This document shows, one piece after another, positions 15,714-21,428 of a stretch of DNA of 64,000 nt. The first letter of the stretch is position 1; each line of letters begins with the position of its first letter. This DNA comes from Rubripirellula tenax (GTDB taxonomy: Bacteria > Planctomycetota > Planctomycetia > Pirellulales > Pirellulaceae), in the NCBI RefSeq assembly GCF_007860125.1, contig NZ_SJPW01000004.1, forward strand, positions 280,372-344,371. The letters are read 5' to 3'. A program made the position numbers and the translations under genes. Below the pieces are notes generated by a model, which had not been told where the DNA came from, did not search any database, and saw nothing but the letters and a program-made list of their open reading frames with translations.

Positions 15714-16253
15714 ATGGAAACGACGCCCGAAACCTTCGATGTCGAGCAGCAGCGACTCCGCGAAAAACTGGAGACGATGTTCGCTGACGTACATTCCGAA
15801 CTGATCGGGACGTTGTTTTATTGCATCGGAAATCTCGACGATGCTCACGATGCGCTGCAGGAAACGTTCCTGAAGTGCTGGAAACATCGCGAGCAAATCG
15901 ACGACGTCCAGAACTTGCGGGCGTGGGTCTTTCGCATCGCACTTAACACCGGACGCGATTTTCGCAAAGCCGCCTGGAACCGACGGCGGCAACCGATCGC
16001 GGAGGAGGCTCTGATGGTATCGACGGCTCAATCGCCCGCCGCGCGGCTGGTCCGCGACGAGCAACTGCAAACCCTTCGCTGCGAGCTATCGAAGCTCCGC
16101 GACGAAGAGCGCGAAGTCTTTCTGCTTCGCCAAAACGGCGACTTGACTTACGACCAGATCGCCGAGGCGATGTCGCTGCCCATCGGCACCGTGAAAACTC
16201 GAATGCGTGCCGCTATTGCCCAGCTTCGCCTAGCAGTCGGAGACCAATCATGA
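15714..16253 (+). CDS. ECF-family RNA polymerase sigma factor
   Basis: A 179-aa sigma-70-family ECF factor. Region 2 is about residues 20-85 (IGNLDDAHDALQETFLKCWK is the sigma-2 DDAxDxxQETF block). Region 4 is about 110-170 (LRDEEREVFLLRQNGDLTYDQIAEAMSLPIGTVKTRM). It directs RNA polymerase to a small regulon. The stop overlaps the next ORF by 4 nt (ATGA at 16250-16253), so it is translationally coupled to a gene with an anti-sigma-like N-terminus. Its promoter is not obvious; an autoregulated ECF promoter would be expected. Confidence 0.93.
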   Translation: METTPETFDVEQQRLREKLETMFADVHSELIGTLFYCIGNLDDAHDALQETFLKCWKHREQIDDVQNLRAWVFRIALNTGRDFRKAAWNRRRQPIAEEALMVSTAQSPAARLVRDEQLQTLRCELSKLRDEEREVFLLRQNGDLTYDQIAEAMSLPIGTVKTRMRAAIAQLRLAVGDQS

Positions 16254-19200
16254 ACCCAACCGACCACAACACCAACGAACTGCGACAATCGCTGCTCGAA
16301 TTGCATTACGATCTGCTCGACGAACCCGAGGCGGCGAAACTGCGCTCGGCTATCCAGACGGATGCCGAAGTGGCTGCGATGTGGGCCGAAACGCTCGCGC
16401 TGGCCGAGACGATGGCAACGGCAGCGAAGTTGCCGGCGGATGATCGAACCACTGCTACGCCAATCTCGCTTCCGCCAATCATGGCTGTTGAGGTCAAGCC
16501 GCGTGTCGAACCAGCACGTGAGCAACAGGCTCGCCGACCCGTTTGGATCGTACCCACCGTTGTCGCCGCCACTGCGGCTTGCCTCGGGTTCTTGGTAATT
16601 GGTTGGCGTCAGTTTGATAGGTTTCCGAAAGCACCGGCCAGCGTCGTGCGCATCGAAGCGGAAGTGATGCCTCGAAAAACCACCGACAAAGGAAACGAGT
16701 TTCGCTTCGTGACGTCGCGAATGGACGCGGCGTCACTTCGCAGCGGCCGCTTTTCGGTGACTCCGGCGATCCTGTCATTCTCCGTGCTCGCAAAAAGCCA
16801 AGTGCTGTTTCGCGGGTCCACCGAAACGGACAGCTCGGGGACTGGAAAAATTGTGTTGCCATCCGAACTCGTGATTCCCCATGATGCGAATCTGGAAGTC
16901 ACGGCCAAGGCAACGTCGGGCTCACTCAGGTCCTCATCGCTGAGAGTACCGCTGGAGCCGACGAGGTGTCTGACCTACCTGACGGTCGACCGCCCGGTAT
17001 ATCGGCCTGGCGAAACCATTTACTTTCGATCGCTGACGCTTGAACGCACATCACTGCGTCCACTCGTGGAGGTGCCGATCCGTTACGAACTGATCGACCC
17101 CAGCGGCAGTGTGGTGCCGGGACTATTCAGCGAAGGCGTGAGCGATCGCGGGGTGGGCAACGGTGCCTTCGCGATCCCTTCGACGGCACCAGGTGGTCCT
17201 TACACGTTAGTCGCCAAAAGCCTTGACGGATTCTTCCCCGAAGAACGTCGCGACTTCGACATCCGCGCCTACCGTGTGCCGCGATTCAAGACAAAAATTG
17301 AGTTTCGTCATCGCAGCTACGGCCCCGGTGATACGGTCGAAGCCGACTTCGCCGCCGAGCGAGCCGAAGGTGGTCCGCTAACCAACGCCAAACTCCGAAT
17401 CTCCGCGAAGGTCGACGACACGATCGCGCATGTCCAATCAGCAACGATGACGGATTCGTGTACGTTTGCGATCGCGTTCCATTTGCCGACTCATATCAAA
17501 AAAGGTGCCGGACAACTTTCCGTAGTGCTCGACGATGGTGGAACCCAGGAAACGACGACCGAGACGATTCCGATTCAACTCGGTCGTGTCGCGGTCGAAT
17601 TCTATCCCGAGGGCGGTTACCTGGTTTCGGGTGTCCCCAATCGCGTGTACTTCACCGCTCGCGATACGCTTGGCAAGCCGATTCAATTGGTCGGTGAAGT
17701 GCAATCTCGTTCGGGCGAGTTCGTTTCCAGTTTGGCGACAACGCGAGATGGCATGGGGCGGTTTGAGTTCACGCCTCAATTCGGTGAGCGTTACGCTTTG
17801 AAGGTGACGTCACCGGTCGATGTCACGGACGCGCCGATGTTACCGACCGTTGTGAAAGACTTGCCCGTGATCGATACAGGGTTCGGAGTCTACGAAGCAG
17901 ATTCGCCGATCGAGATGACGATTCGTAGTTCCCTGGATCGAAACGTAATCGTGCGATCAGTGTGTCGCGGAAAACGAGTGGGCGAACAATCGGTATCACT
18001 TCGATCAGGTGACAATCCGTTGACGATGGAAGTGACCAACGACGCCGGTGGTGTGATTCGCGTCACAGTGCTTGATGCGGCGACATTGCCTGCGAAGCCA
18101 CTCGTCGAAAGGCTCGTGTATCGCCGTCAAAAGACTCACCTTACCGTTGAGTTCGAAGATCCCGAAGCGGCGCTCGATCGATCGCCCGGCGAACCGATGC
18201 GAATGAACTTGCAAGTCCGCAATGAGGCCGGCGAACCGACGCCGGCAGTACTGGGCATTGCGGTCGTCGATGAAGCGGCACTGAGTCTCGATAAAGTCGA
18301 GCGGCCAATGATCACAACGCATTTCTTGCTGACCAGCGAAGTAAAACAACCGGAAGATCTCGAGCACGCGAACTTTTATCTCAGCGATGGCCCCGAAGCC
18401 GCCGAGTCGCTGGACCTGTTGCTAGGAACCCAAGGCTGGAGACGTTTTGTGAGCGGTTCGACAAATCAACCGAACGTGGATTTCCGAGAACAGCTTGTTC
18501 GTTTGCTGGAACTCGATGGAAGTGCTGGCGGTGGTGATCAACAAACCATCGGAAACGAATCGACCGCGGCTTACGAATGGGGCGAGTACCACGAAGCAAT
18601 GACTTCCGCGTGGCAGACGATTGTCTTGCAGACTCGCTTGTTGCTCGCTGGCGTGGTGGTCCTGTGGGGTGTCTCTCTGGTCATTCGGATGCGAAGGCAG
18701 CGAGTGTCTGGTTTCGTCGCGAGCATGCTTGTCGTGGCAACGTCACTGGTTGTTGGTGGCTGTGGCGGTAGTGAATCCAATCGTGTAATACCAGCTTCGG
18801 AAATCGCAGGTTTTGAACAGGCGATGGACCAAGCAAGCGCTCGAAAGGCCAAGGCTTTCCGCGCTGATCCGTCGGGGCAACCCGCGCCCGCCGAGAACGG
18901 GATCGCGGAGAGGATTGACTTGGTGCTTCGTGGCTTCGGTCCGCAGTCGGAAGCGTTCGCGGAGTTGCGAAAGGCCAGATTCGGTCAACCGGGCTCGGAC
19001 GATTCACAGCCGACCCATGCGTTGTCACCCGAGCAATTGAACCAACTTCTCGTGTCGCGTGGTCTCGATGCTCAATCGCTTGCCGATCAATTGCTTGACG
19101 AGTTGCGGTTCCCGGTTCGCCAATACGCCCACGTGCATTCGACGAGTCCTTCGGATGTTCGCGAGGACTTTGCCGAAACTTTGTATTGGCAACCGCTGTT

Positions 19201-21304
19201 GATCACGGATTCAAGCGGTCGTGCTTCGATACGATTTGACCTGTCGGATTCGGTGACCACGTTCCGTGTCGCCGTGGACGCCCATTCCGACAGCGGTAGC
19301 ATCGGATCTTTCGCAGGAAAGATTGCCACACGACTGCCGTTCCAAATCGAACCCCAGTTGCCTCTCGAAGTCACAACAGGCGACCGTATCGACATGCCAA
19401 TTGCGTTTGCAAACTCGTCGAATGGTCAGCTCAACATCGACTACTCAATCGCGACCGACGGTTCGCTCGTGGTGCAGGGTGATGCCAATCGCAAATTGGA
19501 ACTTGATGCCGGTCAGCGAACGCGTGAGACCGTATCGCTTGAGGTACGTCCCAGCGCTGGAAACATTGCCGAGAACACAGCGGCAAGCATCACGATCCGG
19601 GGCATCAGCGAATCGTTGTCAGATTCGATTCGCCGGACCTTGCGAGTTGTCCCGTCCGGTTACCCCGGCAGCCAATCGGTTGCTGGCCGTTTGTCGGGCA
19701 AGGCAACCGCGAAGCTCAACATGCCTGTTGATATCGTCGACGGATCGCTTGCCGTAACGGTGCGAGCGTACCCGTCGCCCGTCGCCGACGTGATGTCGGG
19801 TATCGAGAGTATTTTGCGGGAACCCCATGGTTGTTTCGAACAAGCTTCGGCCACGAATTATCCCAATGCTATGGCGCTTCGGTATTTGCAAGAAAGCCAA
19901 TCCGCGAACCCGGAAGTTGCCGAGCGGGCGTTGGCGATGCTCAACCGAGGCTACACCAAACTGACGAGTTATGAATGTGAAAAACGCGGCTATGAATGGT
20001 TCGGCAGCGACCCCGGTCACGAAGCTCTGTCGGCATTCGGCTTGATGCAGTTCACCGACATGTCCAAGGTGATGACGGTCGACGAAGCGATGATCGATCG
20101 GACTCGAGGTTGGCTGCTGAGTCGTCGCGATGGCAACGGCAGCTTTGCCCGAAACCCACGTCACTTGCATGTGTGGTCGGTCCAGCAGGAAATCGTCAAC
20201 GCGTATGTCTTGTGGGCGCTCACCGAGGCCGACGTCGCGGCGGGCCAGCCGTCGCGCGCGGCAAGTGAACTGCAAAAGGAACTCGATCAATTGCACAAGG
20301 TCGCCGATGCCTCACGAGACCCGTATCTGGTCGCTCTGTCGGCCGCGACTCTGATGAACGTTCGACGTACCGATCTCGGCGAGCCATTGCTCAGTCGCCT
20401 TGTTGAGTTGCAAAACGCCGACGGCAGTTTGCAGGGCCATTCGACCGTCGTTTCCAGCGGAGGTCTATCGCGCACGATGGAAACAACGGCGCTTGCGATC
20501 ATCGCGTGGGCAAAGAGCGCCAACTACACACCCCAAGCCCAGGCCGCCGCCAACTGGATCACCACCCACCGCGTCGGTGCTGGCGGCTTCGGTTCTACAC
20601 AAGCAACCGTCTTGGCGCTCAAGGCACTGTTATCGATCGCCGGTAAAACACCGAGCCAAGCAACCGAAGGTAAGTTGCAAGTCAGACTCGCGGGCACGTT
20701 GTTAGCCGAAGCAAAGCTTCCGGTTGGTGACGGAGTTGCAGTCGAAATGACGGGTCTGGGTGAGAAGATTGCCTCGCAAATGAGCGACTTGAAGAACGTT
20801 GAACTGGAATTGATTGCGATCGATGCCAACAACGTGTCGTACTGCGTCGAGGCCATGTACCATTCGCAAACCCCGGTCAGTAGCGACGATTGCCCGCTTG
20901 ATCTGACGACCAAGTTTAGTGCTGATCTCGCAGCGGACGGGACTGTCCCGGTTGGATCGACCATGCAAGTCATCGCGGAAATCAAAAACACGATAAAGGT
21001 CGGACAGGGGATGGCCGTCGCGATCATCGGGCTGCCCGGCGGAGTCGAGCCGCGAACTGAGAAACTGGATGAATTGAAAACGAAAGGTGAGTTCGACTAT
21101 TACGAACTACGAGGTCGCGACGTAGTTCTGTACTGGCGAACGATTCCACCGAGTTTCAACAAGTCCATCTCGCTCGACGTCACAGCCACAATCCCTGGCA
21201 AGTACACCGGCCCCGCATCACGGGCGTATCTGTACTACACCGCCGAGGAAAAACGATGGACGGAACCACTGACGATCGCAATCAGACGTGCCAGCAACGA
21301 CTGA
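16250..21304 (+). CDS. anti-sigma-like / alpha-2-macroglobulin membrane protein
   Basis: A 1684-aa protein. Residues 1-60 (LRQSLLELHYDLLDEPEAAK..) resemble the cytoplasmic anti-sigma domain of planctomycetes, without a zinc motif. A transmembrane helix (about 98-118) then leads to periplasmic macroglobulin domains, including MG2 (about 247-266, DRPVYRPGETIYFR). A second hydrophobic pair at about 795-840 ends in VVGGC (Cys838). The C-terminal half holds the thioester domain with C1195-F-E-Q and a receptor-like end. Alpha-2-macroglobulins trap proteases after bait cleavage; here the link to an anti-sigma domain and an overlapping ECF gene suggests a protease or damage sensor. That role is inferred. 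Confidence 0.88.
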   Translation: MNPTDHNTNELRQSLLELHYDLLDEPEAAKLRSAIQTDAEVAAMWAETLALAETMATAAKLPADDRTTATPISLPPIMAVEVKPRVEPAREQQARRPVWIVPTVVAATAACLGFLVIGWRQFDRFPKAPASVVRIEAEVMPRKTTDKGNEFRFVTSRMDAASLRSGRFSVTPAILSFSVLAKSQVLFRGSTETDSSGTGKIVLPSELVIPHDANLEVTAKATSGSLRSSSLRVPLEPTRCLTYLTVDRPVYRPGETIYFRSLTLERTSLRPLVEVPIRYELIDPSGSVVPGLFSEGVSDRGVGNGAFAIPSTAPGGPYTLVAKSLDGFFPEERRDFDIRAYRVPRFKTKIEFRHRSYGPGDTVEADFAAERAEGGPLTNAKLRISAKVDDTIAHVQSATMTDSCTFAIAFHLPTHIKKGAGQLSVVLDDGGTQETTTETIPIQLGRVAVEFYPEGGYLVSGVPNRVYFTARDTLGKPIQLVGEVQSRSGEFVSSLATTRDGMGRFEFTPQFGERYALKVTSPVDVTDAPMLPTVVKDLPVIDTGFGVYEADSPIEMTIRSSLDRNVIVRSVCRGKRVGEQSVSLRSGDNPLTMEVTNDAGGVIRVTVLDAATLPAKPLVERLVYRRQKTHLTVEFEDPEAALDRSPGEPMRMNLQVRNEAGEPTPAVLGIAVVDEAALSLDKVERPMITTHFLLTSEVKQPEDLEHANFYLSDGPEAAESLDLLLGTQGWRRFVSGSTNQPNVDFREQLVRLLELDGSAGGGDQQTIGNESTAAYEWGEYHEAMTSAWQTIVLQTRLLLAGVVVLWGVSLVIRMRRQRVSGFVASMLVVATSLVVGGCGGSESNRVIPASEIAGFEQAMDQASARKAKAFRADPSGQPAPAENGIAERIDLVLRGFGPQSEAFAELRKARFGQPGSDDSQPTHALSPEQLNQLLVSRGLDAQSLADQLLDELRFPVRQYAHVHSTSPSDVREDFAETLYWQPLLITDSSGRASIRFDLSDSVTTFRVAVDAHSDSGSIGSFAGKIATRLPFQIEPQLPLEVTTGDRIDMPIAFANSSNGQLNIDYSIATDGSLVVQGDANRKLELDAGQRTRETVSLEVRPSAGNIAENTAASITIRGISESLSDSIRRTLRVVPSGYPGSQSVAGRLSGKATAKLNMPVDIVDGSLAVTVRAYPSPVADVMSGIESILREPHGCFEQASATNYPNAMALRYLQESQSANPEVAERALAMLNRGYTKLTSYECEKRGYEWFGSDPGHEALSAFGLMQFTDMSKVMTVDEAMIDRTRGWLLSRRDGNGSFARNPRHLHVWSVQQEIVNAYVLWALTEADVAAGQPSRAASELQKELDQLHKVADASRDPYLVALSAATLMNVRRTDLGEPLLSRLVELQNADGSLQGHSTVVSSGGLSRTMETTALAIIAWAKSANYTPQAQAAANWITTHRVGAGGFGSTQATVLALKALLSIAGKTPSQATEGKLQVRLAGTLLAEAKLPVGDGVAVEMTGLGEKIASQMSDLKNVELELIAIDANNVSYCVEAMYHSQTPVSSDDCPLDLTTKFSADLAADGTVPVGSTMQVIAEIKNTIKVGQGMAVAIIGLPGGVEPRTEKLDELKTKGEFDYYELRGRDVVLYWRTIPPSFNKSISLDVTATIPGKYTGPASRAYLYYTAEEKRWTEPLTIAIRRASND

Positions 21305-21337: not shown

Positions 21338-21428
21338 GCCAAGTAGGGTGCGTGCTTGTCACGCACCACCCACACTTGTTCGCGGGCGGTGTTTGGATGG
21401 TGCGTGACAAGCACGCACCCTACCTGAA
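21338..21428. repeat. hairpin repeat A, copy 1
   Basis: A 91-bp block whose core 21343-21423 has 26-bp perfect inverted arms (GTAGGGTGCGTGCTT... and its complement) around a loop with a smaller ACAC/GTGT stem. The copy at 31300-31390 differs by one base in the core. It lies downstream of the A2M gene and convergently before the enolase-superfamily gene. It resembles REP/MITE-type non-autonomous elements; no RAYT transposase is in the window. Confidence 0.88.

Follow-up and report, generated by a model that had tools for sequence, protein, structure and literature searches.

Pairing of an extracytoplasmic function sigma factor gene with a macroglobulin gene

Can a macroglobulin on the surface of a bacterium report an attack to a sigma factor inside the cell? 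Two adjacent genes raise this question. They lie in a 64,000-nucleotide (nt) stretch of Rubripirellula tenax DNA (contig NZ_SJPW01000004.1, positions 280,372 to 344,371; the whole stretch is called the window hereafter). One encodes an extracytoplasmic function (ECF) sigma factor (Pfam Sigma70_r4_2, 6.5e-13; Sigma70_r2, 2.6e-10), the other a protein of 1684 amino acids (aa) in which an anti-sigma-like N-terminus seems to be fused to an alpha-2-macroglobulin (A2M). The original prediction, made from the letters of the window, had the two genes overlapping by 4 nt and the N-terminus followed by a membrane helix and a thioester macroglobulin, and this description held throughout. Both open reading frames were found as described, with the sigma stop and the fusion start sharing ATGA. 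A hydropathy scan of the fusion gave three membrane-like helices (residues 100-118, 796-814, and 819-837), the first of which, TM1, is the one following the N-terminus; the other two, like the promoter and the variable linker described below, had no place in the original prediction. MG2 (242-324), A2M_BRD (548-680), A2M (977-1062), the thioester domain (TED; 1181-1460), and A2M_recep (1587-1668) all scored above the curated Pfam cut-offs, and the thioester motif C1195-F-E-Q is encoded at nucleotides 19832-19843. We conclude that the anti-sigma/macroglobulin fusion is probably a membrane anti-sigma factor with a new type of sensor, present in several planctomycete families.

Predicted anti-sigma fold of the N-terminal domain

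An AlphaFold2 model of the N-terminus, built with 10 sequences, contained three helices (residues 3-19, 25-37, and 39-59) arranged as a bundle. Its confidence per block of ten residues (predicted local distance difference test, pLDDT) was 90-97 for residues 11-60 and 78 for residues 1-10. After the bundle, the model shows a linker of low confidence and then one more helix (102-124). When the model was compared with 350,542 PDB chains using Foldseek, the first four of 30 hits were chains of the AlgU-MucA complex (probability 0.94-0.98, E 0.36-0.65); the result table gives no chain name, but the chain lengths of 71-79 fit MucA. Further anti-sigma folds were PupR (rank 6), the partner chain of SigK (RskA; rank 14), and RslA (rank 26). 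At the sequence level, a profile of the domain matched six relatives with zinc-finger-type N-termini (see below) with an E-value of 9.9e-5 and a probability of 58, which is a pairwise value obtained without a database. The NCBIfam "anti-sigma factor" model NF052375 matched four of six relatives scanned (best 2.1e-5, all below cut-off), PRK13920 matched the window protein weakly (0.12), and zf-HC2 was matched in one member of a 37-sequence N-terminal set, at 0.13.

Several results weigh against an anti-sigma identity. The Foldseek E-values for anti-sigma folds were all 0.36 or worse, which may be expected because the domain is so short; affibodies, which are unrelated helical bundles, ranked fifth in the same list, and three-helix bundles are common. 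Pfam gave no family shared by the 37 members of the N-terminal set, the best match of the window protein being TetR_C_13 at 0.03, and the domain profile matched zero anti-sigma chains among solved structures. In class I anti-sigma domains, as published, helices 1-3 are bundled and helix 4 contacts sigma2; some of these domains contain zinc and others do not (PMC7406223). A helix 4 before TM1 was not predicted by AlphaFold2, residues 60-101 being unstructured at low confidence. The anti-sigma N-terminus proposed at the outset therefore has the predicted fold and the matches led by AlgU-MucA on its side, and nothing convincing in Pfam. We consider the predicted anti-sigma identity of the domain well supported, not proven.

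Co-occurrence of the N-terminal domain and the sigma gene

Conservation of the gene pair was assessed in 396 genomes of the order, host included, 56 of which contained a match with an E-value no higher than 1e-50. The resulting 56 loci (L041-L096) were combined with nine loci from a collection (L032-L040) to give 65, among which near-duplicates are possible. The places in G216, G184, G359, and G375 are the same contigs as four of the collection loci, and the fragment G374:C99 was left out. Five loci begin at a contig end (L050, L061, L085, L088, and L093). With the N-terminal domain judged by eye, and a sigma profile made from the same loci to which it was applied, a sigma gene was found upstream on the same strand at all 49 loci that have the domain and enough upstream DNA. 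The absence of such conserved linkage in relatives had been set beforehand as one of two results that would refute the original prediction, and this test did not refute it. In 25 of the 49 loci the sigma stop and the fusion start share 4 nt (GTGA in L086, ATGA in the rest); in L082 and L087 the sigma gene lies 655-942 nt from the chosen fusion start. No sigma gene was found at eight macroglobulins of the signal-peptide type, seven of which were assessable (L074 has just 77 nt upstream); these have neither the N-terminal domain nor the membrane hairpin described below. The same holds for the sigma gene at L083, L089, and L095, where upstream DNA is present and the N-terminal domain is missing. 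The domain and the sigma gene thus come and go together, and because they co-occur at all 49 eligible loci, chance gene order was rejected as an explanation. As a separate observation, L083, L089, and L095 retain the hairpin despite having neither the domain nor a nearby sigma gene.

Six fusions carry a different N-terminus (L077, L079-L081, L084, and L086), in five of which Pfam recognized zf-HC2 (best 1.6e-5); a divergent sigma gene lies upstream of all six. A survey of 392 genomes across the phylum gave 40 with a match, and 29 loci were inspected, two of which (L114 and L126) repeat loci already known. Seven loci from families f38, f41, f48, and f60 (L098-L104) all have the hairpin and an adjacent sigma gene, and the N-terminal domain is visible in six of them, the start of L098 having been set too early to show it. 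At 14 loci of the signal-peptide type no sigma gene was found, one of them (L116) with just 241 nt upstream. The six remaining mixed loci (L108, L110, L111, L115, L117, and L123) include two with a sigma gene alongside, L123 and L110. Four loci from other planctomycete families (L108, L111, L117, and L123) have anti-sigma-like N-termini, three with H-x3-C-x2-C, and no hairpin in the sequence covered.

Repeated loss of the thioester half

Three of the 49 sigma-linked fusions are truncated at the 3' end (L036, L063, and L094), which left 46 in which the thioester motif was counted with the pattern C[FLYWM]EQ. It was present in 32. Among the 14 fusions in which it is missing, 13 are short, with frames of 960-1340 aa that stop close to the MG7 position; the remaining one, L073, is a long protein. 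With this exception, CFEQ is retained in window-type copies that have the thioester domain. On a tree of the macroglobulin ring (62 rows), "no thioester half" falls on 18 rows, four of them without a known sigma gene; this corresponds to about seven parsimony changes, of which well-supported branches require at least three, on a tree that carries long-branch warnings. The short form L038 nests within the closest clade of the window protein. Both the missing motifs and the Pfam scans of three short relatives, in which the A2M (MG7) domain was detected in L038 and in neither of the others, are points against the reading that we favor below.

As 14 of 46 sigma-linked relatives dispense with the motif, the thioester is not essential to the circuit. 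Its chemistry was therefore ruled out as the essential trigger, and the thioester reaction, one of two triggers originally suggested, cannot be a general one. Loss of the thioester need not end protease recognition, since MagD of Pseudomonas aeruginosa, which has none, still traps protease at its bait region (PMC5764988). Because the thioester half was lost repeatedly while the sigma gene and the ring stayed together, the sequences suggest that sensing, rather than covalent trapping, is the conserved function.

Ring, hairpin, and linker of the outer part

An AlphaFold2 model of residues 1-1077 reached a mean pLDDT of 58, with moderate confidence between about 100 and 660, and matched the beta chains of complement C5 and C3 (Foldseek; best E 8.4e-26, ∼620 columns). 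The part of the protein from residue 959 on can be aligned with A2M across MG7 and TED. With a beta-chain-like ring before it and the A2M alignment after it, the pair of hydrophobic helices, termed the hairpin here, should lie between the ring and MG7. By the domain order of A2M and C3, this is about where A2M has its bait region and C3 its anaphylatoxin domain. Two features of the model count against this placement: residues 664-1077 are unreliable, and the C5/C3 matches have TM-scores of 0.2-0.3 and a high root-mean-square deviation, such that the domains agree and their arrangement does not. The position of the hairpin hence rests on domain order.

The second hairpin helix runs into VGGC838, followed by another glycine (GC838G). 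GC follows the hairpin in all 23 rows of the clade of the window protein (22 tree rows plus L036; by eye) and was seen elsewhere only in L086. Residues -3 and -2 before the cysteine often depart from the lipobox consensus. A rule-based check missed the GC of L044 and placed the hairpins of L042 and L046 below threshold. The NCBIfam lipo-invert model NF058595 weakly matched hairpin and cysteine in the window protein and in four of six relatives scanned, in all cases below cut-off; the model is named for a C-terminal anchor, whereas the hairpin and cysteine of the window protein are internal. Beyond the cysteine, residues 841-920 form the least conserved internal stretch, with an identity of 0.18-0.25 over 28 full-length rows that is undercut just by the final four residues of the protein, and the interval between C838 and W980 ranges from 133 to 262 residues among relatives.

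A conserved promoter and the reach of the sigma factor

The commonest bipartite word in 44 regions upstream of the sigma genes was AAATC-N16-TCGTC, exact in 25. Extended to AAATC-N16-TCGTCT, it occurred with at most two mismatches in 42 of the 44 regions and with none in 23, and 4.5% of shuffles of the same regions (single-base composition preserved) reached at most two mismatches; as the motif was derived from the regions in which it was counted, the count is descriptive. The two misses are L082 and L087, whose sigma genes lie 655-942 nt from the chosen start, and the match in L053 sits 189 nt from the chosen start codon. The conserved ECF-type promoter before the sigma gene implies, as far as sequence can, that the sigma factor is autoregulated.

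In the host genome, 229 sites matched with at most one mismatch, versus 45 for the reversed pattern. Most of the 30 sites inspected lie within long open frames, a crude test, because the sigma gene's own site is also in an open frame of 657 bases. The strict pattern gave nine sites versus five for the control, of which only the sigma gene's own is convincingly placed; a candidate site (L160) lies 11 nt before a 196-aa frame yet inside a longer frame. A large regulon in the host genome was accordingly not supported.

Six relatives together contained 24 strict sites versus eight for the reversed pattern. Among 23 that were placed, five are the sigma gene's own and, by the same crude test, five are intergenic before other genes: two vWA/YfbK lipoproteins (L172 and L176), a DUF4349 lipoprotein (L175), L178 (no Pfam match), and L182 (DUF2459). 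DUF4349 genes were then checked at 30 loci of the family, from 36 places; G393, which holds both genes, is outside the 30. Seven had the promoter at N16 with at most one mismatch, and another three had it with a spacing of N15 or N17; one mismatch was reached by 0.5% of shuffles. Nine of the 10 promoter-positive genomes have a window-type A2M, the presence of the sigma gene being unchecked for G845, G849, and G854; the tenth, G351, is outside the 56 A2M-matching genomes. The other 20 loci include three from fusion-bearing genomes (G818; G780, distant; and G819, whose locus is cut upstream) and a few more without usable upstream DNA. The promoter-positive loci are related to one another, and a different sigma factor with the same consensus may explain their promoters. 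No DUF4349 match was obtained in the host genome at the cut-offs used. Promoter-bearing DUF4349 lipoprotein genes include L202, L203, L205, L206, and L217-L220.

A putative signalling mechanism and its alternatives

Sequence or prediction supports the gene pairing, the anti-sigma-like fold, the hydrophobic helices, the promoter, and the dispensability of the thioester. Membrane topology, sigma binding, proteolytic release, and a protease as the signal we infer. In the reading that we favor, and hold to be probable though far from assured, sigma factor and fusion form one signalling unit in which an external event at the ectodomain frees the sigma factor. The three-helix domain would keep the sigma factor bound on the inner side of the cytoplasmic membrane, TM1 would connect this domain to the complement-like ring outside the cell, and the hairpin, near the bait/anaphylatoxin position, would be a second membrane anchor of the ring. 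The variable linker or the ring would then, most likely, be cleaved or strained from outside, for which a protease or another envelope insult is a candidate cause; this would alter or cut the ectodomain, and the anti-sigma part would then be open to stepwise proteolysis or to conformational release of the sigma factor. Once free, the sigma factor would transcribe its own operon from AAATC-N16-TCGTCT and thereby yield more sensor; where a thioester domain is present, this output perhaps includes more protease trap, and lipoprotein genes (DUF4349, vWA/YfbK) may be further targets of the sigma factor in some relatives. In this way, external damage or attack may directly switch on genes inside the cell.

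The signal could also be something other than a protease: tension in the envelope, fragments of peptidoglycan, nucleophiles, or a partner that binds. The ring would then be a generic beta-sandwich receptor, just as RsiV serves as a receptor for lysozyme. This alternative overlaps the favored one, because the sigma/anti-sigma pair is kept and the signal alone differs; we regard it as possible, if rather doubtful. The loss of the thioester motif from many copies is in line with it, as is direct ligand binding by a known anti-sigma receptor (PMC4183432, PMC5014341, and PMC6066255). The hypervariable linker near the macroglobulin bait place speaks against it, and so does the retention of CFEQ where a window-type thioester domain is present, L073 being long without the motif. 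If the pair is genuine and the macroglobulin, as a protease trap tethered to the membrane, is instead mainly what the pair regulates, the anti-sigma part serving feedback on its own level and no sensing of the outside, one would expect what the host genome offers: a sole convincingly placed promoter among nine strict sites, that of the sigma gene itself, and an intact thioester and TED in the window protein. Such a role is nevertheless unlikely, given that short relatives repeatedly lost the trap half, yet keep the sigma gene, anti-sigma domain, ring, and hairpin, and that further promoter sites precede lipoprotein genes in relatives.

That the overlap reflects mere translational coupling, and that the N-terminal helices are no anti-sigma domain at all, is very improbable. 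The unconvincing Pfam results, the lack of sequence matches to solved anti-sigma domains, and the commonness of three-helix bundles would agree with it; the anti-sigma fold matches, the co-occurrence of domain and sigma gene, the zf-HC2-type fusions with their own sigma genes, and the weak NCBIfam anti-sigma matches speak against it. A more elaborate version of sensing, which we think improbable as well, albeit not to that degree, treats the fusion as a two-chain complement analogue acting as a transcriptional sensor. Signal peptidase II would cut the hairpin at GC838G, leaving a beta-like chain (anti-sigma domain, TM1, MG1-MG6, and hairpin anchor) and an alpha-like chain held by a lipid (linker, MG7, and thioester domain). 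As in C3, the beta-like and alpha-like chains would remain together after the cut. The alpha-like chain would shift when the bait is cleaved or the thioester captures a target, and this movement would be read across the membrane and release the sigma factor.

Comparison with known systems

The class I anti-sigma factors MucA, RskA, RseA, and RsiW share with the fusion a three-helix domain, predicted and presumably cytoplasmic in the latter, and one transmembrane helix before the ectodomain; members of this class are also encoded directly after an ECF sigma gene, and the best fold matches were to AlgU-MucA. The fusion differs from them by its macroglobulin/complement ectodomain of more than 1500 aa and its second membrane hairpin, by having no predicted helix 4, and by lacking detectable sequence homology. 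The closest working parallel is RsiV-sigmaV of Bacillus subtilis, in which lysozyme binds the anti-sigma factor RsiV and renders it sensitive to signal peptidase, so that the sigma factor is released (PMC6066255). With its macroglobulin ectodomain the fusion differs from RsiV, and only a functional analogy, that of an anti-sigma factor binding an attacker, is drawn, not shared membership; the attacker here would, by that analogy, be a protease that acts on the linker.

The published role of bacterial macroglobulins is to trap or inhibit proteases (PMC4498604 and PMC5764988). Type I proteins (ECAM/YfhM and Sa-A2M) resemble the fusion in their MG domains, a TED with CXEQ, and an inner-membrane tether, but neither an anti-sigma domain nor a sigma gene or a membrane hairpin is described for them in the available part of the source (PMC4498604), and the fold search of the window protein was led by complement beta chains. 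The type II protein MagD of P. aeruginosa is like the short relatives in being a macroglobulin without a thioester; its operon partners differ, and an anti-sigma fusion is not described in the available part of the source (PMC5764988). If the fusion does inhibit its sigma factor, the macroglobulin fold gains a second role, signalling, besides trapping, for which the promoter listed in Table 1 is an easy genetic readout. Were protease attack the signal, the system would be a bacterial parallel to complement, with detection and response in one molecule.

Literature searches combining macroglobulin, sigma/anti-sigma, and planctomycete, bacterial, or Rhodopirellula gave nothing relevant, in a coverage outside which lie most subscription papers, among them the re-classification of ECF factors and two surveys of planctomycetes that deal with such factors. 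The original remark that no described sigma system of this architecture was known is borne out to the extent that no relevant paper was found, and absence in print is not established.

Feature coordinates and further observations

Table 1. Features of the sigma-macroglobulin locus (window positions; residues refer to the fusion protein).
Feature	Position	Strand	Basis
ECF-type promoter AAATC-N16-TCGTCT, 14 nt 5' of the sigma start codon	15673..15699	+	motif in relatives
ECF sigma factor gene, 179 aa	15714..16253	+	Sigma70_r2, Sigma70_r4_2, TIGR02937
Anti-sigma / macroglobulin fusion gene, 1684 aa	16250..21304	+	open reading frame, Pfam domains
Class I-like anti-sigma domain, residues 3-59, three helices, presumably cytoplasmic	16256..16426	+	prediction, fold search
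TM1, residues 100-118	16547..16603	+	hydropathy and AlphaFold2
MG1-MG6-like macroglobulin ring, residues ∼132-740, C5/C3 beta-chain-like	16643..18469	+	Pfam, model (useful to ∼660)
Membrane hairpin, 796-814 and 819-837, basic stretch between, ends at lipobox-like C838	18635..18763	+	hydropathy, alignment
Hypervariable linker, residues 841-920, near bait-region place	18770..19009	+	conservation profile
PF00207 A2M (MG7-type) domain, residues 977-1062	19178..19435	+	Pfam, alignment
Thioester domain, residues 1181-1460	19790..20629	+	Pfam, alignment, CFEQ motif
C-terminal MG / receptor-binding-like domain, residues 1587-1668	21008..21253	+	Pfam

Just 3' of the macroglobulin gene, a perfect inverted repeat of 26 bases (21343-21368 and 21398-21423) was noted by eye, possibly a terminator or a repeat element. 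The host genome contains a second, distant macroglobulin match (L002; G000:C3:730971-731735) with 25% identity to query residues 969-1216. In relatives, a vWA/GATase-like gene lies upstream at 11 loci, one of which was scanned against Pfam. In one group of relatives, the pair adjoins a protein kinase gene and a further ECF sigma gene in divergent orientation (L090:7355-9881 and the same place in L058, L072, L078, L091, L092, and L096); a kinase gene is also near the pair at L038:3287-4753, Pfam scans having covered L090 and L038 only. Proteins of the vWA/YfbK type encoded in the same genomes (L191-L201; in the host L192, G000:C7:408867-410039) begin, by eye, with an anti-sigma-like stretch followed by a hydrophobic helix, which suggests that large sensor fusions of the anti-sigma kind include another family.

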